Shown here one piece after another: positions 37,452 through 62,639 of a DNA stretch of 64,000 bases; the first letter of the stretch is position 1, and every line of letters begins with the position of its first letter. A model generated the notes under the pieces. That model saw only the letters and a list, made by a program, of their open reading frames with translations. It made no database searches and was not told where the DNA came from. Made by a program: the position numbers and the translations under genes. This stretch comes from a virus. The stretch lies in IMG/VR virus record IMGVR_UViG_3300036792_000267, positions 1 to 64,000 of that record. One strand, written 5' to 3'.

Positions 37452-38429
37452 GTGGCCCTCTATCTGTGCGTTAACGACATCCACGCTCGGCGCCGCCCGC
37501 CGAGCAGCTGCACGGATACGTACTGGCCTGACCTGCTGAAGCTGCTCTACCAGACCGTGGATGTCGCCCGCGAGCGCGAGGTGGCCGCAGTCGTGTGGGC
37601 GGGCGACGTGTTCGACTTCAAGGCACCGTCGCGGACTGACCACGGGCTGATGCAGGAGATTATCGGGGTAATCCAGTCTTACCCGTGCCCGGCATGGATC
37701 TTGCCGGGCAATCATGACATCCAGTTCGACAGGCTGGAGTCCATCGAGATGACGCAGCCGCTGGGCGTGCTGTTCAAGGCTGGTGCCCGGCGGCTGGACG
37801 GCTGGCGTGAAGACGCCCCGCTATACGGCGTGCCCTGGCAGCAGGAATGGTCCCAGGGGACTGTCCGGGCTGCGCTAGCGGACTGGTACGAGTACACGCC
37901 GTTTGAGGCCGCCGGGCCACACCAGCTCGTCGTCACTCACGCCCCGATCTACCCGCCCGGTCAGGAGCCGCGTTACGAGGGGGCTGAGTTCACCCCGGCG
38001 TCCTGGTGGGCGGATGCCCTGGGCAACGAGGGCTGCCTGCTTTACGGGCACATCCACGAGCCGCACGGCGTGTGGCGGCACGAGGGCGTGACGTTCTGCA
38101 ACTTCGGCGCGCTCAGCCGGGGCAGCCTGGACGAGTACAACCGTAGCCGCCAGGTCGGGTGCGCGCTGTGGGACAGCGCGACCGGCGAGTTCGAGTTCGT
38201 GCCGCTCGATGCGAGGCCGGCCGAGGAGGTGTTCCGCCTGCGGCAGCACGAGGAGGCCCAGGCCTCGCACCGCCGGCTTGACCTCTTCCTGTCGGGGGTG
38301 GACGCCGCTACCCTCGGCCTGCTGAACGTGGAGTCCGTAATTGCCCACATACGCGAGGGCGGCCATGACGCCCGCGTGGTGAGCCTGGCCGAGGAACTGC
38401 TCATGGCCCAGCAGGGGGGAACGCGTTGA
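37452..38429 (+). CDS. sbcD: SbcD/Mre11-like nuclease
   Basis: The product is 325 aa. The calcineurin-type phosphoesterase motifs are complete: N-D-I-H at 8-11, W-A-G-D-V-F-D near 50, P-G-N-H-D near 84, T-H-A near 160 and Y-G-H-I-H near 200. It should work with the two SbcC halves in end processing. No capping domain beyond residue 260 is recognised. Confidence 0.8.
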   Translation: MALYLCVNDIHARRRPPSSCTDTYWPDLLKLLYQTVDVAREREVAAVVWAGDVFDFKAPSRTDHGLMQEIIGVIQSYPCPAWILPGNHDIQFDRLESIEMTQPLGVLFKAGARRLDGWREDAPLYGVPWQQEWSQGTVRAALADWYEYTPFEAAGPHQLVVTHAPIYPPGQEPRYEGAEFTPASWWADALGNEGCLLYGHIHEPHGVWRHEGVTFCNFGALSRGSLDEYNRSRQVGCALWDSATGEFEFVPLDARPAEEVFRLRQHEEAQASHRRLDLFLSGVDAATLGLLNVESVIAHIREGGHDARVVSLAEELLMAQQGGTR

Positions 38430-38941
38430 ACCGCATGTTCTTGAGGACCGCCGTCGGCTTCGACCTGGACAGCACGCTGTGCGACACGCGGCACCGCTGG
38501 CACCTGTCGCCGATGGCTGACCCGGAGTCAAGCTGGGCCGTGTACTGCGCAGCGCGGACGGGCGACACGCCTATTGCCGGCACCGTGGCTGCGGCCAGGC
38601 TGCATTACCTGTATAACCAGATCCACATCTGGTCAGGCAGTGAGTCGTCATCGGATGCGGTGACCCGCCGGTGGCTGAACCGTCACCGGGTCCCGTTTGA
38701 CGACCTCCGGCAGCGCCCGCTCGGCGACGACCGGCCCAACGCCGAGGTCAAGATCGGCTTCATCGAGGAGCTGCGGGCCCGCGGCATCGAGACGGTGCTG
38801 TACTTCGAGGACATTCCGGACGTGGCCGCGGAGATCCACGAGAAGACCGGCGTTCCCGTCCTGGTCGTCAACCCCTGCTATCCCGAGGACCTGGATAAGT
38901 TCCGGCACGGCGTGCACGACGGCATGGGCGGCGGCTTGTGA
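38426..38941 (+). CDS. HAD-type phosphatase, PNK 3'-phosphatase-like
   Basis: The product is 171 aa from TTG 38426 (overlaps the SbcD stop; GGGGGGA upstream). F-D-L-D-S-T-L-C-D at 12-20 has the catalytic DxD. I-W-S-G-S-E-S ... T-R-R-W-L-N near 72-85 and Y-F-E-D-I-P-D near 130 fit HAD phosphatases such as the T4 polynucleotide 3'-phosphatase. Probably end repair of DNA or tRNA. Confidence 0.6.
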   Translation: MNRMFLRTAVGFDLDSTLCDTRHRWHLSPMADPESSWAVYCAARTGDTPIAGTVAAARLHYLYNQIHIWSGSESSSDAVTRRWLNRHRVPFDDLRQRPLGDDRPNAEVKIGFIEELRARGIETVLYFEDIPDVAAEIHEKTGVPVLVVNPCYPEDLDKFRHGVHDGMGGGL

Positions 38942-52381: not shown

Positions 52382-53197
52382 GTGTCGCTGGATAAGATCC
52401 TCGCCCTGTCCGGCACTGGCGCCGGGCTGCCGGACCTGGACGCTGAGCTGCTGCTCGCCGTCCAGGCTGCCTCCCGGGAGCTGGCCTTGCTGCTGGCCTC
52501 CGGTGACGACAGCAGCGATGGCGACAAGGGCGGCGGGAACAAGCCCGGCAAGAACGGCGATGACGACGACAGCGGCGATGGCGGCGAGCACACGGGTCAC
52601 GCTACCTACAAGGCGATGGTGAAGCGGAACATCCCGCCGAAGAGGGCCGCCGCCATGTGCGCCAAGTCGGACAAGAACGTCAAGGCCACCCAGCTGGCCG
52701 AGTCCATCTCGGTCATCCTCGCCGGCAAGCCGGGCCAGGACATCGCGCTGGTGACGCTCACCCCGGCCAGCGAGACCGCCGAGGGGCGCAAGAAGGCGGC
52801 CGAGTCGGGGCACGCGCTGCCGGGCGGCAGTTACCCGATCGAGGACAAGAAGCACCTGCACTCGGCTGCGGTGCTGGCCGCCTCCGGGCACGGCGACACC
52901 GGCGCCGCCAAGGCGCTGATCCGCAAGCGGGCGCGCGAGCTGGGCGTGGACGTCAAGACGCTGCCTGGCTTCGGCGGCTCGGACGAGGACAACGAGAAGG
53001 CCGCCGCCTCGATGGTGGCGCTGGCCAAGCAGGCGGGCGGCGGGGTGGCGATGCACCACGCGCCGATGACCGGCACCCACGCGCACGCGCACGCGGTCGG
53101 GGCCACTCATGAGCACGACCACCAGCATTTCGGTGACAACAACCACAGCGGCGGCCCGCTGCACCGGCCGGGCTCTGAGCCGAGAAGGGACTGGTAA
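52382..53197 (+). CDS. Head-region protein with a His-rich tail
   Basis: The product is 271 aa. GTG 52382 follows GGGAGG. An acidic/Gly linker (45-75) leads to A-L-P-G-G-S-Y-P-I-E-D-K-K-H-L-H-S-A near 150, a motif common in actinophage capsid-maturation or associated proteins. The last 40 residues are His-rich (H-A-H-A-H-A ... H-E-H-D-H), likely metal binding. Confidence 0.55.
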   Translation: MSLDKILALSGTGAGLPDLDAELLLAVQAASRELALLLASGDDSSDGDKGGGNKPGKNGDDDDSGDGGEHTGHATYKAMVKRNIPPKRAAAMCAKSDKNVKATQLAESISVILAGKPGQDIALVTLTPASETAEGRKKAAESGHALPGGSYPIEDKKHLHSAAVLAASGHGDTGAAKALIRKRARELGVDVKTLPGFGGSDEDNEKAAASMVALAKQAGGGVAMHHAPMTGTHAHAHAVGATHEHDHQHFGDNNHSGGPLHRPGSEPRRDW

Positions 53198-53199
53198 CC

Positions 53200-53379
53200 A
53201 TGTTCGCTTGGGTAGGCGCGCTGTTCGCCGCCATCGCCTTCATCCTGTACGCAGCCAAGTCCGGTACCAATGTCCCGTGGACCCCGATGGGCTTCACGAT
53301 CCTCGCCATCCTCTGCCTGCTACTGCACGTGGCGTTCTGGTGGTACCCGGTCGGCCGCCGCCCGGGGCCGCCAGCGTGA
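53200..53379 (+). CDS. Small two-span membrane protein
   Basis: A 59-aa frame, ATG 53200 to TGA 53379, with two hydrophobic segments (residues 4-19 and 30-48). AAGGGA lies 10 nt upstream. Small two-span proteins next to structural genes can be holins, but the endolysin is far away, so the role is open. GTGA overlap with terminase. Confidence 0.55.
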   Translation: MFAWVGALFAAIAFILYAAKSGTNVPWTPMGFTILAILCLLLHVAFWWYPVGRRPGPPA

Positions 53380-55343
53380 CCTCGGCCGGCGCTGCCGCCG
53401 CGGCCCTGCTCGGGTCGGCCGGCGGCACGGGGACGTCGGCGGGCGGGACCGGCATCTTCGAGGAGGAGCCGGTCCCGCTCGACGTGTTCGTACGGGACCG
53501 CGACTACCTGGCCAACCCGCCGCTGAGCGAGGTCCAGTACGAGGCGGTGCGGCACGCTGAGCGGGTCTACTACCTGGCCACCTACGACCTGCTCAGCCAG
53601 AGCGCCGACAAGCGGGTGCGGGACTACTGGAGCCAGCCGACGCGGATGGTCAACTTCCTCGAACTCGAATGGGGCAAGGGCGGCGGCAAGGACCACACCT
53701 GCCGGATGATTGCCATGCGGGTGTGCTACCTGCTGCTGTGCCTGAAATCCCCGCAGGACTACTACCAGATGCCTGAGCAGGACAGCATTCACGTTCTCAA
53801 CGTCGCGTCGTCCTCCAAGCAGGCCCAGCGCGCGTTTTTCGCCCCGATGCGCCGCGCCGTGCAGCGGCCCGGCTGCTGGTTTCAGCGCAAGGCGGGAATC
53901 GACATCCTCGACGCCGCCGAGCGGCAGCGCCGCGGTGCCCGCGGCGACCGGACCGTCACCCTGCTGGACACCATCCGGTTCGAGCACAATATTGAGGCCG
54001 TCTCCGGGCACAGCGACGCCGACAGCCAGGAGGGGCTCAACCTGATTCTCGGCATCGCCGACGAGATCGACGCGTTCCGGTCGGCGGCGGAACTGGCGAA
54101 GAACGCGGGCGCCAAGCAGCGCGAGTCCTCCAGCTCGGCCGAGGCGATCCTCGACATGATTCGCACAAGTGCGACCACAAGGTTTCCGGAAACCTTCAAG
54201 AACGTGCACATCTCCTATCCCAGGTATCTGGGCAGCACCATCCAGCAGCTGGTTGCCAGGGGGAAGGCAGACAACGAGGCTCGCGGGAACAAGAGCCGCT
54301 ACTACGTGTCCGGCCCGCTGGCCACCTGGGAGGCGAACCCTCGTATCAAGGGCAAGGAGTCGTTCGCGGAGGACTACCTGAAGGACCCCGCCATGGCGGA
54401 GGCCAAGTACGAGTGCAAGCCGCGGCGCGCGGTCAACCCGTACTTCGCCAACGAGGAAGCCATCCGCGACTGCCTCACCGAGTACGCCCAGCCGCCCCTG
54501 GCAGTGAGCTACATCCGCGAGGGCGCGTCGTGGAAGCCGGTCTACACGTTCAGCTCCGAGTGCTACCCGGTGAAAGGCGCCTTGTACGCCATGCACGCCG
54601 ACCTGGCGGCCACCGGCGACCGGGCCGGCATCACCCTCGCCCACGTCAAGCGCTGGCAGGACCACGCGCTGACCGGGTACGACGAGGACGGGCTGGAGAT
54701 CAAGGTCGCTGAGCGCCGCCCGGTGGTGAAAGTGGACTTCACCATCAGCTACGAGGCCGACGCCGGGGCCCGCCCGCCGATGGAGATCCAGATCCGGTGG
54801 GCCCGCATGCTGTGCCTGGAACTGCGCCGGATGGGATTCCCGGTGACGTTCTTCTCCTTCGACCAGTGGCAGTCGAAAGACTCGATGCAGATCCTGGAAT
54901 CGCACGGCATCGAGACCGACCGCTTCTCCACCGACGTGTCCGAGGAGGGCTGGCGCACCCTGCGCGACGTTATGTACGAGGGGCGCCTGGAGATGCCCGC
55001 CCGCGAGCTGACGGTCATCGAGCTGCTGGGCTTGAGCCGCTTGCCAAATGGCAAGATCGACCACCTGGGCGACAGCTCCAAGGACGAGGCCGACAGCCTG
55101 GCGGGCGCGGTCTCCGGGGCGCTGCGCATCGGCGGCATGGAGGACGCCAGCGGCAAGCGGGCCTACCCTGGCCAGATCTCGTTCTACGGGCCGGCGGCCG
55201 AGATTCCCTTCCCCGCGGGAATGCCGGCGGCCATGTCGGTGCTCGGGCCTGACCAGTTCATGCCGCCCGACCGGCCTGGCATGGAGTACGGCAGCAGCTA
55301 CCTGGACGACTGGGGCTCGGTCAGCGGGGACTACCTGCAGTAA
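53376..55343 (+). CDS. terL: Terminase large subunit
   Basis: The product is 655 aa from GTG 53376. Walker A W-G-K-G-G-G-K-D-H at 99-107 and Walker B L-I-L-G-I-A-D-E-I at 223-231 define the packaging ATPase; the C-terminal half (from about residue 405: Y-A-M-H-A-D-L-A-A-T-G-D, later F-F-S-F-D-Q-W-Q-S) fits the RNase H-like nuclease. It packages DNA into proheads. A Gly/Ala-rich N-terminal 30 residues is unassigned. Confidence 0.8.
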   Translation: MTSAGAAAAALLGSAGGTGTSAGGTGIFEEEPVPLDVFVRDRDYLANPPLSEVQYEAVRHAERVYYLATYDLLSQSADKRVRDYWSQPTRMVNFLELEWGKGGGKDHTCRMIAMRVCYLLLCLKSPQDYYQMPEQDSIHVLNVASSSKQAQRAFFAPMRRAVQRPGCWFQRKAGIDILDAAERQRRGARGDRTVTLLDTIRFEHNIEAVSGHSDADSQEGLNLILGIADEIDAFRSAAELAKNAGAKQRESSSSAEAILDMIRTSATTRFPETFKNVHISYPRYLGSTIQQLVARGKADNEARGNKSRYYVSGPLATWEANPRIKGKESFAEDYLKDPAMAEAKYECKPRRAVNPYFANEEAIRDCLTEYAQPPLAVSYIREGASWKPVYTFSSECYPVKGALYAMHADLAATGDRAGITLAHVKRWQDHALTGYDEDGLEIKVAERRPVVKVDFTISYEADAGARPPMEIQIRWARMLCLELRRMGFPVTFFSFDQWQSKDSMQILESHGIETDRFSTDVSEEGWRTLRDVMYEGRLEMPARELTVIELLGLSRLPNGKIDHLGDSSKDEADSLAGAVSGALRIGGMEDASGKRAYPGQISFYGPAAEIPFPAGMPAAMSVLGPDQFMPPDRPGMEYGSSYLDDWGSVSGDYLQ

Positions 55344-56196: not shown

Positions 56197-56270
56197 AGGG
56201 GTGTAGCTCAGTAGGTCAGAGCAGCGGTCTCCAAAACCGTGTGCCGCGGGTTCGAATCCCTCCTCCCCTG
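56197..56270 (+). tRNA. tRNA-Trp(CCA)
   Basis: Cloverleaf with loop CTCCAAA. Acceptor AGGGGTG pairs with CTCCCCT except one T-T; T stem has one mismatch. First gene of the array. Confidence 0.85.
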
Positions 56271-56566
56271 CGACCGTCAGCAACGGCGAGAGCCTGAGCA
56301 GGCGCATGTCAACCGCATATTGACACTTCCACAGCGTGAGCATCTGCGGCGGGCGCCAACCCGCCGCAAGTTTCGGCGTGGTGAAAGACAATGCAGCTAC
56401 TCCCGGGGAGCAGCAGCCGTTAAAGGCTGGGGTCGCCGCAAGGCGGTCCTGTACCGGGCACCGTGCCAGTTTGAAAGCTTGCCGTGCCGTCATCAGGCGG
56501 AGTACACGGCAGCCAAGCGTGACGGCCGGGGCCGCGTTCACACCGTGGTCTCGCCGTCGCGCCTAT
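56271..56566 (+). other. 296-bp spacer without a recognised gene
   Basis: No tRNA or frame with good coding bias is seen. A stable hairpin TGCGGCGGG/CCCGCCGCA lies near 56345-56375. Might hold an unrecognised RNA. Confidence 0.35.
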
Positions 56567-56639
56567 GGGGTCTTAGCTCAGCTGGAAGAGCATCTGCTCG
56601 GCAGACAGAAGGTCACGGGTTCAAGTCCCGTAGGCTCCA
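56567..56639 (+). tRNA. tRNA-Ala(GGC), C33
   Basis: G3-T70 pair (Ala identity). Anticodon stem TCTGC/ACAGA has one mismatch; loop TCGGCAG has C instead of T at position 33. Confidence 0.75.
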
Positions 56640-56775
56640 CTGGACCGGATGGCAAGTCTGTCGCCATGTGTAGAGGGCCGTGACGGGTACCTCAGCGGCG
56701 GTTATACCGAAAGCCGGGTGTCTCCGGTGGCAAAGCGGCAGGTTTCGCGGGACATCTCCGTCATCCGGTTCTCCT

Positions 56776-56848
56776 GGGGCTTTAGCGCAGCTGGTAGCGC
56801 GCTGCATTCGCACCGCAGAGGCCGCGGGTTCGACTCCCGCAAGCTCCA
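56776..56848 (+). tRNA. tRNA-Ala(CGC)
   Basis: G3-T70 pair; anticodon loop TTCGCAC; T arm GCGGG-TTCGACT-CCCGC complete. Confidence 0.85.
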
Positions 56849-57124
56849 CGTGGCGGACCGTGGCACGGCATCCGCAGCAGGGCCGATCACCCTGTGCACA
56901 GGTAACCGGCCTTGAATGCCCGGCGCGAGTCCAAGCGTCCGGGGCGGAGGCACCCGCCACTCCAATTCCCGGTGAGTAAGCCGTGGCAGGCTGAGGGGCC
57001 GGGGCAATGCGGAACAAGGCACGTGCTGGTCTGCCCCGTCGGTTCCAACCTCCGGGCCTGCTGGCCAAGGTCGCCTCGCCAGGCGGCTGATGCGGCGATG
57101 CAGGACCATGACGACCAGATTCAA

Positions 57125-57198
57125 CTAGCTATGGCGCAGCTTGGTAGCGCATCGCGTTCGGGACGCGAGGGCCGCAGGTTCAAATCCTGCTAGCCAGA
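57125..57198 (+). tRNA. tRNA-Pro(CGG)
   Basis: Anticodon arm TCGCG-TTCGGGA-CGCGA perfect; acceptor CTAGCTA/TAGCCAG has an A-C mismatch at 3-70. Confidence 0.8.
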
Positions 57199-57199
57199 C

Positions 57200-57274
57200 T
57201 GGGGTGTAGGGAAGATTGGTCATCCCGCCTGCCTTGGGTGCAGGAGATCGCCGGTCCGAGTCCGGTCACCCCGA
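57200..57274 (+). tRNA. tRNA-Pro(TGG)
   Basis: Anticodon arm CCTGC-CTTGGGT-GCAGG. T loop TCCGAGT has C at position 55. Starts 2 bp after tRNA-Pro(CGG). Confidence 0.8.
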
Positions 57275-57320
57275 CCCGTGTGAGTCAACCGACACACGTA
57301 AATCCCCATCGGTTGAGCCT

Positions 57321-57394
57321 GGGGCCTTAGCTCAGTTGGTAAGAGCGTCTGGTTGAAACCCGGAAGGTCGGTGCGTCGAGTGCACCAGGTCCCA
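57321..57394 (+). tRNA. tRNA-Phe(GAA)
   Basis: Anticodon arm TCTGG-TTGAAAC-CCGGA. T loop GTCGAGT has G at position 54. Acceptor GGGGCCT/AGGTCCC. Confidence 0.8.
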
Positions 57395-57408
57395 CGCAGT
57401 AACACAAT

Positions 57409-57481
57409 GGGGATGTGGCCGAGCGGCTACAGGCTCCTGCCCTCCAAGCAGGCTACGCGGGTTCGATTCCCGTCATCCCCT
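57409..57481 (+). tRNA. tRNA-Gly(TCC)
   Basis: Acceptor GGGGATG/CATCCCC, discriminator T; anticodon arm CCTGC-CCTCCAA-GCAGG. Confidence 0.9.
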
Positions 57482-57491
57482 CTGGTACGGG

Positions 57492-57508
57492 CCAGACTCA
57501 TAATCTGG
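57492..57508 (+). pseudogene. Isolated tRNA anticodon arm (CAT)
   Basis: CCAGA-CTCATAA-TCTGG is a perfect Met-type anticodon arm with a normal T33, but no acceptor or D arm fits around it. Probably a tRNA-Met remnant. Confidence 0.35.
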
Positions 57509-57544
57509 TTGCGTGCAAGCGGCTGTCGCGCCGCGGCCGGGCCG

Positions 57545-57572
57545 CCTGACGGGGGGCGACACCTTCGTCAGG
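57545..57572 (+). repeat. Spacer hairpin
   Basis: CCTGACG (57545-57551) pairs with CGTCAGG (57566-57572) in the spacer between tRNA-Gly and tRNA-Lys. Confidence 0.45.
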
Positions 57573-57588
57573 GGCGCCGGTTGTTTAC

Positions 57589-57661
57589 GTGCCGCTAACT
57601 CAATTGGCAGAGTACCGTCCTCTTAAGTCGGGAGTTGGGGGTTCAAGTCCCTCGCGGCGCA
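57589..57661 (+). tRNA. tRNA-Lys(CTT)
   Basis: Acceptor GTGCCGC/GCGGCGC; loop CTCTTAA; one T-T mismatch in the anticodon stem. Confidence 0.85.
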
Positions 57662-57738
57662 CTGGAGGCGGTCCGGAGACCGCGCCCGTGGCTGACAACG
57701 ACGTACAGGTCTCCTGCTGTCAGCGGGCCCGCCTCCAG
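57662..57738 (+). repeat. Hairpin-closed spacer element
   Basis: CTGGAGGCGG (57662-57671) pairs perfectly with CCGCCTCCAG (57729-57738); inside are GGTC/GACC and GCTGACA/TGTCAGC stems; CTTTTC follows. It starts on the base after tRNA-Lys. Confidence 0.55.
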
Positions 57739-57744
57739 CTTTTC

Positions 57745-57820
57745 GGGCGAGTAGCAGAACCGGCATATGCGGCGGCCTCAAAACCCGTGTCTCCTGCGGG
57801 TTCAAGTCCCGCCTCGCCCA
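57745..57820 (+). tRNA. tRNA-Leu(CAA)
   Basis: Acceptor GGGCGAG/CTCGCCC; loop CTCAAAA; short variable arm for a Leu tRNA (76 nt overall). Confidence 0.75.
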
Positions 57821-57917
57821 CGCGGCTGGCAAGGCCGTTCTGCGAATCCTTGCCCGGTCCCCTCTGCGGGAGGAACAGGTCCGTCAATCCGGGGTCAGCA
57901 AAGAGCCTCGGCAACTA

Positions 57918-57989
57918 TGGAGTATGGGGTAATCGGCAGCCCGGCAGATTCTGGCTCTGTCAGTCTTGGTTCGAGTCCAGGTACTCCAG
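57918..57989 (+). tRNA. tRNA-Gln(CTG)
   Basis: Acceptor TGGAGTA/TACTCCA; anticodon arm GCAGA-TTCTGGC-TCTGT. Its 3' half is antisense to the small gene at 57960-58079. Confidence 0.85.
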
Positions 57990-58079
57990 CGAGAGCAGCA
58001 GGTCAAGGTGCATCTCGATCTCGTCATTGGTGATGAGGCTGACAGCCAGGTCGATGAAGTCAAGTTCGTCCATACTCAT
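57960..58079 (-). CDS. 39-aa acidic peptide
   Basis: ATG 58079 to TGA 57960, M-S-M-D-E-L-D-F-I-D-L-A-V-S-L-I-T-N-D-E, with typical G/C third positions. It lies 29 bp downstream of the DinB-like gene on the same strand and runs antisense into tRNA-Gln. No ribosome site seen. Confidence 0.5.
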   Translation of the reverse strand: MSMDELDFIDLAVSLITNDEIEMHLDLLLSLEYLDSNQD

Positions 58080-58108
58080 TAAGTTCGCGAGCAGGCCGAA
58101 CTGTGAGG

Positions 58109-58654
58109 TCAGTCAGGAACGTAGAGGTGGTGCGGGAGGATGTTCAGCGTGTAAGTCCCGTCGAACCGCGGCATGCTGCCGGCCAGCTCCCCCAGGTGCC
58201 AGTAGACGTGGACCGCTAGGTGCTCCCACACGGCCCCGCCGGTCAGCAGGGACACCGGCACCCCGGCAGGCGCGGGAGCGTCCCACTGGCTGAGGTCGAA
58301 CTCGTCCAGTACCCGCAGCGCCTTGGTGACCGTCTGGCAGAACACGCGCAGCAGGACCACCTTCGGGAACGTCTCCCGGTCGACGCTGGCTGCCTTGCTG
58401 ACGGCACTGGGCTCGGCCAGGTTTGTCTCGTTGAACACCTGGTGGACCGAGCGGCTGAGGACCGTCCGCCGCCCGTCGAGCCACGAGCTGAACAGGTCAG
58501 CCACGCAGGCCAGGTGCCCGATCGTCCAGGCAGCGGAGAACCCGGTCGGGAGTTCTTCGAAGAACTCGTCGTTACTGACCGGCTCCAGGCCGAGTAGCAG
58601 TATGTTGCCGCTGCGGTCGATCTGCCGCGCGACGACTTGCTTAGCAGTAGTCAT
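58109..58654 (-). CDS. DinB/YfiT-like protein
   Basis: The product is 181 aa. W-T-I-G-H-L-A near 42-48 and H-V-Y-W-H-L-G-E-L near 150-158 give the His residues of the DinB four-helix metal fold, used by thiol-dependent transferases. Opposite to the tRNA genes around it. Start ATG 58654 is preceded on its strand by GCG-TAGTAA-AAGC, a class 2 motif, and has no Shine-Dalgarno site. Confidence 0.65.
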   Translation of the reverse strand: MTTAKQVVARQIDRSGNILLLGLEPVSNDEFFEELPTGFSAAWTIGHLACVADLFSSWLDGRRTVLSRSVHQVFNETNLAEPSAVSKAASVDRETFPKVVLLRVFCQTVTKALRVLDEFDLSQWDAPAPAGVPVSLLTGGAVWEHLAVHVYWHLGELAGSMPRFDGTYTLNILPHHLYVPD

Positions 58655-58658
58655 GCTT

Positions 58659-58664
58659 TTACTA
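58659..58664 (-). promoter_or_regulatory. Class 2 -10-like motif TAGTAA, 4 nt before ATG
   Basis: On the - strand GGGGCG-TAGTAA-AAGC-ATG precedes the DinB-like gene, the only class 2 site found on that strand. Confidence 0.4.
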
Positions 58665-58665
58665 C

Positions 58666-58739
58666 GCCCCGGTAGCTCAGCCGGAAGATGCGCTCGCTTC
58701 GTAAGCGAGAGGTCCCCAGTTCAACTCTGGGTCGGGGCT
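58666..58739 (+). tRNA. tRNA-Thr(CGT)
   Basis: Acceptor GCCCCGG/TCGGGGC; anticodon arm CTCGC-TTCGTAA-GCGAG perfect. Confidence 0.9.
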
Positions 58740-58741
58740 CG

Positions 58742-58854
58742 GTCAGGCTGAGGCAGGGGAGGCCCTTCACCGGGTCGCACTAGGTTGCCCGCAGCCCAGT
58801 AGCTTGGGCACGGGAGAAGGATGCCGGGCAGCACGGCCCGGGTGTAGGCCTGAC
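58742..58854 (+). repeat. Hairpin-closed spacer element
   Basis: GTCAGGC (58742-58748) pairs with GCCTGAC (58848-58854) at both ends of the spacer between tRNA-Thr and tRNA-Leu; an inner CCCA/TGGG stem is also visible. Confidence 0.45.
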
Positions 58855-58859
58855 AACAA

Positions 58860-58943
58860 GCCCGAATGCTGCAATCGGTAGACTGACCCGCTTGAGGAGT
58901 GGGTGTCCTTCGGGGCGTGCGGGTTCGAGTCCCGCTTCGGGCA
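58860..58943 (+). tRNA. tRNA-Leu(GAG)
   Basis: Acceptor GCCCGAA/TTCGGGC; anticodon arm CCCGC-TTGAGGA-GTGGG; long variable arm TGTCCTTCGGGGCGT. Confidence 0.9.
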
Positions 58944-59040
58944 CCTGGGGGAGATCCGGTGTAGCGCACCGGCTGGGGGCCAGGGCCCCTGGTAGTTCAA
59001 AAGTCGCTGACAGCCCTGGCAGAAAGAACACCCCCTCTAC

Positions 59041-59113
59041 GCCGGCTTAGCTCATCGGGCAGAGCGCCCGCCTTGTAAGCGGAAGGTGACCCGTTCGAGT
59101 CGGGTAGCCGGCT
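59041..59113 (+). tRNA. tRNA-Thr(TGT)
   Basis: Acceptor GCCGGCT/AGCCGGC; loop CTTGTAA; T arm ACCCG-TTCGAGT-CGGGT. Confidence 0.9.
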
Positions 59114-59114
59114 C

Positions 59115-59203
59115 GGAGGCTGCATGCAAGGTACGGCGCGCTAACGCGCGGGACAGCGCAGGAACCCGAGTACCGTCGTAAACCGACTGTCCTTGCAGCC
59201 TCC
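59115..59203 (+). repeat. Hairpin-closed spacer element
   Basis: GGAGGCTGCA (59115-59124) pairs perfectly with TGCAGCCTCC (59194-59203); GGTAC/GTACC and GGCGCG-type stems are nested inside. Confidence 0.55.
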
Positions 59204-59213
59204 TTCAGCTCGC

Positions 59214-59287
59214 TCCGGGGTGGGTTGTGCGGCATCCCGTCTTGACTTTGGATCAAGGGCACGCCAGTTCGATTCTGGCCCCCGGAA
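59214..59287 (+). tRNA. tRNA-Gln(TTG)
   Basis: Acceptor TCCGGGG/CCCCGGA; anticodon arm CTTGA-CTTTGGA-TCAAG; T arm GCCAG-TTCGATT-CTGGC. Confidence 0.9.
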
Positions 59288-59296
59288 CAAGCACAT

Positions 59297-59370
59297 GCCC
59301 CGGTAGCTCAGTTGGCGAGAGCGTTTCCCTGGTACGGAGGAGGTCCCGCGTTCGATTCGCGGTCGGGGCT
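59297..59370 (+). tRNA. tRNA-Thr(GGT)
   Basis: Acceptor GCCCCGG/TCGGGGC; loop CTGGTAC with two G-T pairs in the stem. Confidence 0.85.
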
Positions 59371-59381
59371 CGCAAGATCAT

Positions 59382-59454
59382 GCCGACGTGGTGCAGCTGG
59401 TGGCACATCGCCTTGCCAAGGCGGAGGTCGCGGGTTCGAATCCCGTCGTCGGCT
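59382..59454 (+). tRNA. tRNA-Gly(GCC)
   Basis: Acceptor GCCGACG/CGTCGGC, discriminator T; anticodon arm TCGCC-TTGCCAA-GGCGG. Confidence 0.9.
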
Positions 59455-59464
59455 CGTGTACCCC

Positions 59465-59528
59465 GCCGTGGCCACCGGGTAAGGGGGTTCAGCACATGCC
59501 CGGGTCGCGCCCGGCACGGTGGCACGGC
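59465..59528 (+). repeat. Hairpin-closed spacer element
   Basis: GCCGTG-g-CCACC (59465-59476) pairs with GGTGG-CACGGC (59518-59528), 11 bp with one bulge. Confidence 0.45.
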
Positions 59529-59590
59529 TGCCCTGGCAGCCTGCTCTCCTGACGACAGGGGACAAGGGGGCTCAGCCCTCCCAGGGACGC

Positions 59591-59674
59591 GGGCGGGTGG
59601 CGGAATAGGCAGACGCGCACGGTCCAGGCCCGTGTATCCCGCAGGATGTGAGGGTTCAAGTCCCTCCTCGCCCA
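59591..59674 (+). tRNA. tRNA-Leu(CAG), C33
   Basis: Acceptor GGGCGGG/CTCGCCC; anticodon stem CACGG/CCGTG perfect; loop TCCAGGC has C at position 33. Confidence 0.85.
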
Positions 59675-59765
59675 CTTTCGGGTCCGCTCCCGTGGCCCGG
59701 GGGCGTCGCGCATCGCGCCGCGGCGGTTCCAGTCCTCCTGCTAGCGGAGGGCGAACGGGAGGCCC

Positions 59766-59856
59766 GGAGGGATGGCACGAGTGGCTTAAGGCGCTGTCCT
59801 GCTAAGGCAGAGGGTCTGCGAGAGCGGCCCCGCGGGTTCGAATCCCGCTCCCTCCG
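59766..59856 (+). tRNA. tRNA-Ser(GCT)
   Basis: Acceptor GGAGGGA/TCCCTCC; loop CTGCTAA; long variable arm; 91 nt. Confidence 0.9.
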
Positions 59857-59941
59857 CTTCTGTACCGGATACCAGCCAAGTCCGTTAGGTGGTGACGCAG
59901 GTACAGCGCCCGCGGGAGACGGCAATCCTTGGCGGGCACCT

Positions 59942-60027
59942 GGAGGGTTCGCCTAGTCCGGCCTATGGCGCTGCGTCGGAAGCGCAGTTGGTTAACAGCC
60001 TCGCGAGTTCGAATCTCGCACCCTCTG
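59942..60027 (+). tRNA. tRNA-Ser(GGA), C33
   Basis: Anticodon stem CTGCG/CGCAG perfect; loop TCGGAAG with C33. Acceptor GGAGGGT/ACCCTCT with G1-T72. Confidence 0.85.
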
Positions 60028-60031
60028 CCCC

Positions 60032-60122
60032 GGAGAGGTAAATCGAGTTGGCCTACCGATCGCGGTCCCGAAAACCGTCAGGGGGTTCGTCCCCCGTGTG
60101 AGTTCGAGTCTCACCCTCTCTG
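60032..60122 (+). tRNA. tRNA-Ser(CGA), C33
   Basis: Anticodon stem GCGGT/ACCGT; loop CCCGAAA with C33. Long GC-rich variable arm. Starts 4 bp after tRNA-Ser(GGA). Confidence 0.85.
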
Positions 60123-60132
60123 CGCATGGCTT

Positions 60133-60168
60133 GAGGCGGTACCCGCGGGCCGCTGCAGGTACCGCCTC
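60133..60168 (+). repeat. Spacer hairpin, 11-bp perfect stem
   Basis: GAGGCGGTACC (60133-60143) pairs with GGTACCGCCTC (60158-60168), 14-nt loop, just after tRNA-Ser(CGA). Confidence 0.55.
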
Positions 60169-60315
60169 CGTAATCGCCAGGCGAATGAATCTGCTCGGAT
60201 TCAGCTTCGAGACCAGACTCGGTGCCTTGCAGGCGGCTGTTACCGCCTGCACCCGAAAGCATACATACGGTTACGATCTTGAGCAAGCGGCGAAATAGCT
60301 CAAGATGTCTGGCAC

Positions 60316-60388
60316 GGGCGGGCAGCTCGATGGTTCGAGCAGCTTCCTGATACGGAGAAGGTTGGAGGTTCAAGTCCTCCTCCGCCCA
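60316..60388 (+). tRNA. tRNA-Ile(GAT)
   Basis: Acceptor GGGCGGG/TCCGCCC; loop CTGATAC; T arm GGAGG-TTCAAGT-CCTCC. Confidence 0.85.
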
Positions 60389-60399
60389 CGTACGACCGG

Positions 60400-60473
60400 A
60401 GGCCGGTAGCTCAGCTGGTCAGAGCGACACGCTTATAACGTGTGCGTCAGGAGTTCAAGCCTCCTCCGGCCTA
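60400..60473 (+). tRNA. tRNA-Ile(TAT)
   Basis: Acceptor AGGCCGG/CCGGCCT; anticodon arm ACACG-CTTATAA-CGTGT. Reads AUA directly, without lysidine. Confidence 0.9.
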
Positions 60474-60476
60474 CGA

Positions 60477-60549
60477 CGCGGGGTAGCTCAGTTGGCAGAG
60501 CAGCCGGCCCATAACCGGAAGGTCGCGGGTCCGAGTCCCGTCCTCGCTA
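60477..60549 (+). tRNA. tRNA-Met(CAT), C33
   Basis: Anticodon stem CCGG/CCGG core; loop CCCATAA with C33. C1-T72 mismatch; T loop TCCGAGT (C55). CCA is encoded (to 60552). Initiator, elongator or Ile2 role not decided. Confidence 0.8.
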
Positions 60550-60553
60550 CCAC

Positions 60554-60627
60554 GGGCCGCTAGCTCAACAGCGAAGAGCAGTTGCCTTTTAAGCTTCAGG
60601 TTCCGGGTTCGAGCCCCGGGCGGCCCA
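60554..60627 (+). tRNA. tRNA-Lys(TTT)
   Basis: Acceptor GGGCCGC/GCGGCCC; loop CTTTTAA; anticodon stem has two T-T mismatches. Starts 2 bp after the encoded CCA of tRNA-Met. Confidence 0.75.
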
Positions 60628-60641
60628 CTAGCCTGGTTCCT

Positions 60642-60788
60642 GTGAAGACTCTGGCCTGGCTCCTCGATGAAGCCCTGGACCGGCTCCCGTGCCGCGAGGA
60701 CGGCCGGTGGCGCTGGTACGGCGAGTGGGGCTGCCGACTGGAGAACAGGTTTCCTGTCCTGCGCGAGTGGATGTACGAGCGCCGGTAG
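60642..60788 (+). CDS. 48-aa protein inside the tRNA array
   Basis: GTG 60642 to TAG 60788: M-K-T-L-A-W-L-L-D-E-A-L-D-R-L then Trp-rich W-R-W-Y-G-E-W-G. Good codon bias. TAGCCT (60629-60634) ends 7 nt before the start, so it may be leaderless. Its last 10 bp overlap tRNA-Arg(TCT). Confidence 0.55.
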   Translation: MKTLAWLLDEALDRLPCREDGRWRWYGEWGCRLENRFPVLREWMYERR

Positions 60789-60852
60789 CTCAGCCGGATA
60801 GAGCGGCTTCCTTCTAAGAAGACGGCCGGGGGTTCGAATCCCTCCCGGCGCG
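60779..60852 (+). tRNA. tRNA-Arg(TCT)
   Basis: Acceptor GCGCCGG/CCGGCGC; loop CTTCTAA. Its first 10 nt are also the last codons of the 60642 gene. Confidence 0.85.
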
Positions 60853-60863
60853 CGCATGAACAT

Positions 60864-60938
60864 GGTCTTGCAGAGCAGTCCGGAGTGCTCGCCTGCCCCT
60901 CAAGCAGGAGATCGTCGGTTCGAATCCGTCCAGGACCA
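60864..60938 (+). tRNA. tRNA-Glu(CTC), C33
   Basis: Acceptor GGTCTTG/CAGGACC, encoded CCA to 60941. Anticodon arm CCTGC-CCCTCAA-GCAGG, C33. C8 instead of T8. Confidence 0.8.
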
Positions 60939-60942
60939 CCAA

Positions 60943-61016
60943 GCCCCCGTCGACTAGCGGCCTAAGTTACCGCCCCTTCAAGGCGGCGGACACCGGTTCG
61001 AATCCGGTTGGGGGCA
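60943..61016 (+). tRNA. tRNA-Glu(TTC), C33
   Basis: Acceptor GCCCCCG/TGGGGGC; anticodon arm CCGCC-CCTTCAA-GGCGG, C33. Confidence 0.85.
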
Positions 61017-61050
61017 CGTGGGCATCAGGATTTATCCTGGTGTCCTTCGA

Positions 61051-61126
61051 CGCGGAGTAGGGGAGTTCGGTCGTCCCCGCGGCGCCCATAACGCCGAGAT
61101 CGCGGGTCCGAATCCCGCCTCCGCCA
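61051..61126 (+). tRNA. tRNA-Met(CAT), C33
   Basis: Anticodon arm CGGCG-CCCATAA-CGCCG, C33. C1-C72 mismatch as in initiators, but no GGG/CCC anticodon-stem signature. T loop TCCGAAT (C55). Confidence 0.8.
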
Positions 61127-61230
61127 CGGGAAGGAACTGCCCAGCTCCCTTGCATCCGGATGCATCGGCACGCGCGGCTGGCGTTCCGGCACAGCGGCCC
61201 GGCCCCGGTCGTTCCCAAACGGGGCCTCTA

Positions 61231-61303
61231 TCCGGTGTGGCGCAATCGGCAGCGCAACTGACTGTTAATCAGAGGGTTCCCGGTCCGAGTCCGGGCACCG
61301 GAG
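61231..61303 (+). tRNA. tRNA-Asn(GTT)
   Basis: Acceptor TCCGGTG/CACCGGA; anticodon arm ACTGA-CTGTTAA-TCAGA; T loop TCCGAGT (C55). Confidence 0.9.
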
Positions 61304-61412
61304 CGCGTGGGCCTGGGGCCTGCGGGATACAGCCTGGTCCGCGGCCGGGCCCGGGTCCCGTTGGGCGGAGAAGCAGCCATACCCAGGGAAGCGGGGGTGC
61401 CCCGCACATCAT

Positions 61413-61487
61413 GGTGACGTAACTCAGCATGGCCAGAGTGCTGCCTTGTCACGGCAGAAGTCGCGGGTTCAAATCCCGTCGTTACCG
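61413..61487 (+). tRNA. tRNA-Asp(GTC)
   Basis: Acceptor GGTGACG/CGTTACC; anticodon arm CTGCC-TTGTCAC-GGCAG. Its 3' end overlaps the stop of the - strand gene at 61482. Confidence 0.9.
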
Positions 61488-61637
61488 CGTGCCCCGTCGT
61501 CGCACGATGACCGTGCAGGCCAGGGCGAACAGCGCTAGCAGGCCGATGACTGGCCATGTTAGCCAGTGCAGCCCGGCCGCCTTCAGCAGGTCATCAAGGA
61601 TGAAGCCGAGCGCGACGCCGACCAGGATGAACAGCAT
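61482..61637 (-). CDS. 51-aa membrane protein
   Basis: ATG 61637 to TAA 61482. M-L-F-I-L-V-G-V-A-L-G-F-I-L and a second hydrophobic segment (W-P-V-I-G-L-L-A-L-F-A-L-A-C), then R-R-R. Small two-span protein; follows the 61640 gene with 2 bp between them. Confidence 0.6.
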   Translation of the reverse strand: MLFILVGVALGFILDDLLKAAGLHWLTWPVIGLLALFALACTVIVRRRGTR

Positions 61638-61639
61638 CG

Positions 61640-61777
61640 TTAGCCGAGCCCGGCGCGACGCCGCCGCTCGGCGTGCTCGAAGTCACGGATGCGCCGGATG
61701 GCGAGGTGGCCGCCGAACTTGAGGCCGGTCGCGATGCCAGCGCCGAAGACGGCTAGCAGCAAGATGAAAGTGCCCAC
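61640..61777 (-). CDS. 45-aa membrane protein
   Basis: GTG 61777 to TAA 61640. M-G-T-F-I-L-L-L-A-V-F-G-A-G-I-A-T-G-L-K-F then a basic tail (E-R-R-R-R). One transmembrane helix. Forms a two-gene operon with the next small membrane gene. Start is the only sensible one but lacks a close ribosome site. Confidence 0.55.
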   Translation of the reverse strand: MGTFILLLAVFGAGIATGLKFGGHLAIRRIRDFEHAERRRRAGLG

Positions 61778-61831
61778 GTGATTAAACGGTACGTCACCCC
61801 CTGGTCTCTTTACCAGGGGCAAGCAAGACAT

Positions 61832-61905
61832 GGCCGTGTAGCTCAGCAGGCTAGAGCGTTTCCATGACACGGAAGAGGTCCCTGGTTCAAGTCCAGGTAC
61901 GGCCA
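61832..61905 (+). tRNA. tRNA-Val(GAC)
   Basis: Acceptor GGCCGTG/TACGGCC; anticodon arm TTTCC-ATGACAC-GGAAG. Confidence 0.9.
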
Positions 61906-61906
61906 C

Positions 61907-61979
61907 GCGCGCGTAGCTCAACGGATAGAGCTGCAGTCTACGGAACTGTGTGTTGGAGGTTCGAGTCCTCTCGTGCGCA
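61907..61979 (+). tRNA. tRNA-Arg(ACG)
   Basis: Acceptor GCGCGCG/CGTGCGC; anticodon arm GCAGT-CTACGGA-ACTGT. Starts 1 bp after tRNA-Val. Confidence 0.9.
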
Positions 61980-61982
61980 CTG

Positions 61983-62033
61983 GACGGCAGGTGAGCAGGC
62001 TGACACCGCCTTCGGGCTCAGCCCCCTGCCGTC
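61983..62033 (+). repeat. Hairpin-closed spacer element with T run
   Basis: GACGGCAGG (61983-61991) pairs with CCTGCCGTC (62025-62033), inner GAGC/GCTC, then TTTC. Fills the whole gap between tRNA-Arg and tRNA-Val. Confidence 0.55.
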
Positions 62034-62039
62034 TTTCAA

Positions 62040-62113
62040 GTCCGGTTAGCTCAGCCTGGGAGAGCGCTGCCTCCACACGGCAGGCGTCGGGGGTTCAAAT
62101 CCCTCACTGGACA
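62040..62113 (+). tRNA. tRNA-Val(CAC), C33
   Basis: Acceptor GTCCGGT/ACTGGAC; anticodon stem CTGCC/GGCAG perfect; loop TCCACAC with C33. Confidence 0.85.
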
Positions 62114-62115
62114 CG

Positions 62116-62187
62116 GTGGGATTTGCCGTCGAGGGAAGGCGCAGGGTTGTGGTCCCTGCAAGGCGGGTCCGACTCCCGTATCTCACC
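62116..62187 (+). tRNA. tRNA-His(GTG)
   Basis: Acceptor GTGGGAT/ATCTCAC with C73 and a G at 62115 for the His-specific G-1:C73 pair; loop TTGTGGT; T loop TCCGACT (C55). Confidence 0.85.
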
Positions 62188-62191
62188 CCAA

Positions 62192-62271
62192 AGCGACAGT
62201 GGGCGGCGGCACGCCCAGCGGCCTGTAAAGCCGTGGCCTTGGCAGACCTGGGTCGGCACCAGGTGTCGCTA
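62192..62271 (+). tRNA. tRNA-Tyr(GTA)
   Basis: Acceptor AGCGACA/TGTCGCT perfect; loop CTGTAAA; variable arm GGCCTTGGCAGA; T loop GTCGGCA (G54), which could hide it from standard scans. Confidence 0.75.
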
Positions 62272-62302
62272 CGTTAAGGTTTTCCCGAGAAAAGGAGAGC
62301 CT

Positions 62303-62374
62303 ATGCCCAGGTACACGATTCCCTGCGTCGCCCACTGTGAAAGCGGGGCATTAACGCAGGTCTTGCGCTCGTAG
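62303..62374 (+). CDS. 23-aa peptide
   Basis: ATG 62303 has AAGGAG 7 nt upstream; M-P-R-Y-T-I-P-C-V-A-H-C-E-S-G. The end overlaps tRNA-Arg(CCG). Too short for more than a weak call. Confidence 0.25.
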   Translation: MPRYTIPCVAHCESGALTQVLRS

Positions 62375-62438
62375 CTCAGTGGACAGAGCACCGGCTTCCG
62401 GAGCCGGGTTGTCGGAGGTTCGAGTCCTCTCGGGCGCG
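62365..62438 (+). tRNA. tRNA-Arg(CCG)
   Basis: Acceptor GCGCTCG/CGGGCGC; anticodon arm CCGGC-TTCCGGA-GCCGG perfect. Confidence 0.9.
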
Positions 62439-62442
62439 CTAT

Positions 62443-62516
62443 GGCGGTATGGCCGAGTGCGGTTCAGGCACACGTCTGCAAAACGTGGTACCCGGGTTCG
62501 ACCCCCGGTACCGCCT
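62443..62516 (+). tRNA. tRNA-Cys(GCA)
   Basis: Acceptor GGCGGTA/TACCGCC, discriminator T; anticodon arm CACGT-CTGCAAA-ACGTG. Confidence 0.9.
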
Positions 62517-62520
62517 CCAT

Positions 62521-62594
62521 GACCCTGTAGCTCAGCTGGACAGAGCTGCTTCCCCCTAAGGAGCGAGTCGCTGGTTCGAGTCCAGCCAGGGCCA
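62521..62594 (+). tRNA. tRNA-Arg(CCT), C33
   Basis: Anticodon arm GCTTC-CCCCTAA-GGAGC with C33; acceptor GACCCTG/CAGGGCC has an A-C mismatch at 2-71. Last tRNA of the array. Confidence 0.8.
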
Positions 62595-62639
62595 CGTACG
62601 CCGGTGCTCACGCTGTGGCAGTTCCGAGGTCCAATTACT

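Follow-up and report, generated by a model that had tools for sequence, protein, structure and literature searches.

C33 in place of the near-universal U33 in a conserved phage tRNA array

The uridine at position 33 (U33) of transfer RNA (tRNA) is near-universal and is treated as nearly invariant, forming the U-turn that presents the anticodon. Here, we describe a phage tRNA array with frequent departures from this rule, located in a 64,000-nucleotide stretch of DNA (the window) that represents positions 1 to 64,000 of the IMG/VR virus record IMGVR_UViG_3300036792_000267, itself 151,377 bases long. The array (56197..62595, + strand) contains 38 tRNA genes that together represent every one of the 20 amino acids; cytidine occupies position 33 (C33) in 11 of them and U33 is kept in 27. 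Across the array and its relatives, the departures are characterised by restriction of position 33 to pyrimidines, repeated switching, intact other invariant positions, avoidance of G37, no link to codon demand and occurrence in few array lineages. The textbook rule is relaxed in one phage lineage, for roughly a quarter of some 35 genes, in tRNAs that otherwise look functional. On a balance tipped only slightly in favour of this reading, we interpret the pattern as a relaxation at position 33, where either pyrimidine would be almost neutral, in a functional set of back-up tRNAs of the focal lineage.

The array was identified using ARAGORN, Rfam covariance models and direct reading, and base 33 was read for every tRNA as the base directly 5' of the anticodon. 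ARAGORN called 37 tRNAs at 56197-62595; the 38th, tRNA-Ser(CGA), was not called by ARAGORN in the window and was added based on its sequence, Rfam and ARAGORN calls in relatives. At 38 tRNAs in 6.4 kb, the locus is a tRNA array in the sense of at least 20 dense genes representing most isotypes, and it is phage-borne and keeps its order in relatives. No tRNA was found in the rest of the record outside the array.

Ten of the C33 genes are among those called by ARAGORN, and Ser(CGA) is the eleventh. All lie on the + strand. The anticodon loop starts with U32 and C33 in tRNA-Ala(GGC) (56567..56640), tRNA-Leu(CAG) (59591..59675, among the few C33 genes with G37), tRNA-Ser(GGA) (59941..60030) and tRNA-Val(CAC) (62040..62114). 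C32 precedes C33 in tRNA-Gly(TCC) (57409..57482; Rfam 55.9 bits), two tRNA-Met(CAT) genes (60477..60552 and 61051..61127, both with C55), tRNA-Glu(CTC) (60864..60941), tRNA-Glu(TTC) (60943..61017), tRNA-Arg(CCT) (62521..62595) and tRNA-Ser(CGA) (60033..60120). For Ser(CGA) the loop, CC-CGA-AA, was read from the sequence and the Rfam match is tRNA-Sec-like only (32.7 bits); ARAGORN does call this gene in the relatives L001, L002, L003, L005 and L008, and it has C33 in every relative that possesses it. The first Met gene has an initiator-like C1.U72 mismatch, but isotypes other than Met account for nine of the 11 C33 genes, and C33 is therefore not confined to initiator tRNA. Many of the C33 genes are the sole array copy of their anticodon. 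An earlier note, made from the sequence of the window, had listed ten C33 and 28 U33 tRNAs; all ten were correct, but Gly(TCC) had been overlooked and the true number with U33 is 27. It had also described the anticodon stems as otherwise well paired, and the Rfam covariance-model matches, the fold check that it had proposed, agree with the tRNA folds. The stem of the second Met(CAT) gene is perfect, but not every stem is well paired: in Ala(GGC), the pair that closes the loop is a C31.A39 mismatch.

The C33 calls are not an artefact of sequencing, assembly or prediction, because the same pattern recurs in independent metagenome assemblies, in agreement with the note's view that no general reading error was involved. 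Further, when position 33 was forced to a given base, ARAGORN recovered 229 of 240 genes with A33 or G33 and 231 with C33; the absence of purines at this position is therefore not a detection bias.

Relatives were found and ordered using the large terminase gene of the window (53109..55343, +; PHROG terminase match), with which a search yielded eight related contigs and, when an alignment of the gene was used, 79 loci. The terminase tree groups nine distinct contigs in a single clade (support 100/100). These contigs, which are metagenomic and in some cases incomplete, share the same ordered array, with 33-38 tRNAs each apart from one shorter array of 15 tRNAs (C33 in 6/15), and have 6-11 C33 genes each; the full arrays of the eight relatives have 6-10. 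Across eight focal contigs, two of which have identical arrays, the base at position 33 is T in 206, C in 69 and a purine in none of 275 tRNAs, and in the array family as enlarged by a DNA-pattern scan it is T in 309, C in 108, G in one and A in none.

Which genes carry C33 varies among relatives. With orthology of isoacceptors assigned by order and anticodon, so that some tRNAs may have been exchanged, 24 isoacceptors toggle between the two bases and at least 50 switches are needed. Only Ser(CGA) is always C33; in the array family, Val GAC has C33 in 11/15, Asp in 10/14 and Asn in 9/14, and Trp, Phe, Ile GAT, Gly GCC, Lys CTT, Arg ACG and Arg CCG are never C33 in the clade. When orthologs with an identity of at least 90% are compared, 14% of the pairs have different bases at position 33, always T and C, placing it among the fastest positions; the mean over positions is 5%, and positions 8, 14, 54, 56 and 58 show 0% difference in the same pairs. 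Near-identical pairs exist in which T or C at position 33 is one of only two differences, for example Glu(CTC) of L002 and L005. As a separate observation on array content, L001 has a tRNA with the anticodon UCA (called as selenocysteine tRNA by ARAGORN) between tRNA-Glu(TTC) and tRNA-Asn, where other relatives have a second Met tRNA; this tRNA could read UGA.

In the eight focal contigs, positions 53, 54, 56, 58 and 61 are kept in 97-99% of genes, positions 8 and 55 in about 94% and position 14 in 88%, alike in C33 and T33 genes, and the anticodon stems have on average 4.81 of five pairs in C33 genes vs 4.73 in U33 genes. Position 33 itself is constrained in two respects. G37 is depleted in C33 genes (7/107 vs 71/306 of T33 genes, p=8e-5), also within isoacceptors (Cochran-Mantel-Haenszel p=0.004, odds ratio 5.9), as expected if pairing of C33 with G37 were to close the loop. 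The proportion C/(C+T) is 0.68 in array spacers vs 0.26 at position 33, corresponding by our arithmetic to a scaled preference for U33 of about 1.8; U is therefore still mildly preferred overall. There is no correlation between C33 and phage codon usage (rho -0.04), and a concentration of C33 in tRNAs of low demand was thus rejected. Additionally, T-to-C changes at position 55 in the T loop are raised in the focal lineage (16/275, with 1 G, as compared to about 1/237 in distant relatives) and in the window affect the genes at 57200, 60477, 61051, 61231 and 62116. Position 55 is a second normally invariant U that relaxes to C in this lineage.

Outside the array family, C33 is far less frequent. 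More distant relatives by terminase have 227 T, 6 C and 4 purines (6/237 C33), and five cultured actinophage arrays have 124 T and 1 C (1/125). The excess of C33 in the focal family is beyond chance against both (Fisher p=2e-13 and 4e-11, respectively), although these values, like those for G37, treat related tRNAs as independent and are therefore optimistic. Other viral arrays from the pattern scan, with screened isoacceptors left out, have 723 T, 29 C and 11 purines (29/763), and actinobacterial plasmid arrays 118 T and 8 C (8/126). A comparable level was observed in a metagenome-assembled genome (MAG) of the Micromonosporaceae, whose array has 9 C33 and 1 A33 among 29 tRNAs, on a contig that could in principle be misbinned but has neighbours that look chromosomal. 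All 47 core tRNAs of this genome have U33; U33 core and C33 array tRNAs can therefore share one genome, and C33 as a bacterial core tRNA trait was rejected for this one array-bearing genome. The distant relatives, cultured actinophages and other viral arrays thus follow the U33 norm fully or nearly so. Mobile arrays in general have C33 now and then, but a level of about 25% is special to the focal family and the Micromonosporaceae MAG array. Several C33 genes were also seen in arrays on two bacterial contigs (L210, 7/19; L185, 4/17) and in a Sigynarchaeota MAG (L182, 4/12), which suggests further independent cases outside actinophages.

The relaxation that we favour would operate as follows. 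The array would be a functional, near-complete supplementary tRNA set with conserved anticodon order, acting as a back-up pool during infection, and selection at position 33 would for this reason be weak. C would be the mildest substitute for U33, as a pyrimidine still able to occupy the loop turn, and could drift in and out gene by gene under a GC-rich base composition, being excluded mainly where pairing with G37 might close the loop. The C33 tRNAs would be charged and would decode adequately. Several observations weigh against this reading. It gives no reason why this lineage should be affected: the GC-rich array phages Magritte (GC 63%) and G013 (GC 64%) have U33 in 26/26 and 30/31 tRNAs, and array phages with a GC content of 0.60 or more have only 5/134 C33 outside the screened isoacceptors. 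GC pressure alone was rejected on the latter count, and a lineage-specific relaxation is therefore needed. Ser CGA, Val GAC, Asp and Asn reach or exceed the neutral expectation for C33, which leaves room for selection for C33 in these tRNAs. Changes of U33 can also impair translation in published mutants, as in yeast tRNA-Gln, where the phenotype of U33C was attributed to poorer decoding (PMC3664417), and some cost of C33 is therefore expected.

A broad alternative is that C33 is adaptive: U33-dependent actinobacterial anticodon nucleases may select C33 in phage and mobile arrays, giving a decoding-competent set resistant to nucleases that read the U-turn, or a host enzyme may restore U33 by C-to-U editing. 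This broader proposal is doubtful in our judgement; if true, either form of it would be a novel means by which phages modify the U-turn of their tRNAs. Its nuclease component taken by itself, in which tRNA-cleaving defences of the host recognise C33 tRNAs less well or not at all and changes of host shift which tRNAs need C33, thereby producing the toggling, we regard as unlikely. Anticodon-loop changes at nuclease sites in phage tRNAs have been proposed to escape VapC, PrrC and colicins (PMC10264068), and C33 in 11/38 tRNAs is an anticodon-loop change relative to a normal tRNA. Mobile arrays are where C33 is concentrated, and none of the 47 core tRNAs in the Micromonosporaceae MAG has it; in this genome and one other, an RNA-binding gene of the Ro/TROVE type lies 1.5-3 kb away from the array and suggests a context of RNA damage, and some isoacceptors are at or above the neutral level. 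However, the 24 interchangeable isoacceptors do not point to a consistent target set, and the overall frequency of C33 (26%) is below the spacer-based expectation (68%); the suggestion in the earlier note that nuclease resistance selected for C33 is thus without specific support. The RNA ligase families PF09414 and RtcB are absent from the focal phages, and some annotations of cultured U33-array phages list RNA ligases, yet G014 also lacks both families and has U33 in 44/44 tRNAs, for which reason missing RNA repair was rejected as the cause.

A further alternative is hypomodification at position 37. In tRNAs affected in this way, a U33:A37 pair could form and shut the loop; C33 has no such pairing with A37 and would keep the loop open. 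C33 is indeed strongly tied to A37 and avoids G37, also within isoacceptors. Pairing between U33 and A37 is known to be prevented by N6-threonylcarbamoyladenosine (t6A), and in human mitochondrial tRNA-Thr the U33C change does not stop t6A from being formed (PMC7102964). The avoidance of G37 is, however, equally expected if C33 is merely tolerated, and isoacceptors dependent on a modified A37 are never C33 (Ile GAT 0/12, Lys CTT 0/10, Phe 0/10, Trp 0/7), making under-modification an improbable cause. Somewhat less probable still is editing, in which a deaminase would turn C33 into U33 in the transcript and make T and C equivalent in the gene. Editing accounts for variation between T and C only, for their fast interchange and for the missing link to codon demand. 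TrcP acts at position 32 of the anticodon loop, adjoining 33. Its C-to-U(-to-pseudouridine) editing in Vibrio cholerae (PMC9553926) is a precedent for such conversion in bacterial tRNA, albeit in another organism. However, PF00383 (dCMP/cytidine-deaminase family) was not found in any focal phage, and no deaminase or pseudouridine-synthase family was among the Pfam matches of the translated open reading frames scanned, a scan that covered proteins of at least 60 amino acids, with several exceptions; a phage-encoded deaminase was therefore dropped as a candidate and a host enzyme is possible. If editing were complete, C33 should approach the spacer level and ignore G37, and neither holds. Decay of the C33 genes into pseudo-tRNAs, an alternative raised in the note, is the least probable of all and can be regarded as ruled out. 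The Ala(GGC) closing pair is mismatched and some genes fold poorly as unmodified RNA, but the loss of other invariants and stems expected of pseudogenes is not seen, because C33 genes keep the near-invariant positions and stems as well as U33 genes; purines are nearly absent at position 33 (1/109 of non-T bases), and the same isoacceptors occur in the same order throughout the clade. The note's other alternative, a decoding partner encoded elsewhere, is unlikely as a general explanation because many C33 genes are sole copies and the record has no other tRNA, although host tRNAs remain.

Searches of the open-access literature gave no description of tRNA arrays rich in C33. The mycobacteriophage C1 tRNA clusters (van den Berg et al. 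2023, PMC10264068) are alike in being large phage arrays with nearly all isotypes and anticodon-loop departures, but the change described here affects a single position in many isoacceptors and is interchangeable between relatives; the main text of that study does not mention position 33 by the terms searched. Chromosomes, plasmids and phages of mycobacteria also carry tRNA array units (PMC5966550, PMC12803027), which are likewise dense, consist of isoacceptors redundant with core tRNAs and are in part suspected to have an anti-defence role, but the plasmid arrays that we examined are well below the 26% C33 of the focal family. C33 also occurs in a working tRNA in the eukaryotic initiator (PMC9023262), where it is limited to the initiator, whereas the focal array has it mostly in elongators of many isotypes. 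A natural lineage in which about 24 isoacceptors switch between U33 and C33, and the tRNAs otherwise remain intact, amounts to an existing experiment on the weight of U33 in decoding. Decoding, modification and sensitivity to nucleases can each be compared within the near-identical C33/U33 pairs, making it testable why phages carry tRNA sets.

The record also includes genes for a terminase, a DNA polymerase, a DnaB-like helicase, a sliding clamp and an endolysin; phage genes were called with a script using codon periodicity. The focal soil phages probably have actinobacterial hosts, because Microbacterium phage Magritte is the closest of the cultured phages (47% for the terminase and 34% for the polymerase) and there is an Lsr2-domain match among the phage proteins; a terminase search of bacterial genomes for a host or prophage gave no match. 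A B12-binding radical-SAM protein distantly similar to TIGR03960 (43413-46385, +), an unusual phage gene, is present in all focal phages and some relatives, among them G007 (4/36 C33). It was dropped as a cause of C33 as it also occurs in relatives with few tRNAs and a search of G030 and G034, two further members of the C33 array family with possibly incomplete contigs, did not detect it. In two bacterial genomes, the only TROVE (Ro-like RNA-binding) gene follows the C33-containing array (G044:C305:27268 (L394) and G045:C79:10517); TROVE genes are also present in the phage relatives Magritte, G013 and G018 and absent from the focal phages. The region 38426-38941 (+) has a weak match, below the cut-off, to HAD_PNKP (polynucleotide kinase-phosphatase phosphatase domain), and a DinB_2-superfamily gene (58109-58654, -) lies within the tRNA array on the opposite strand.

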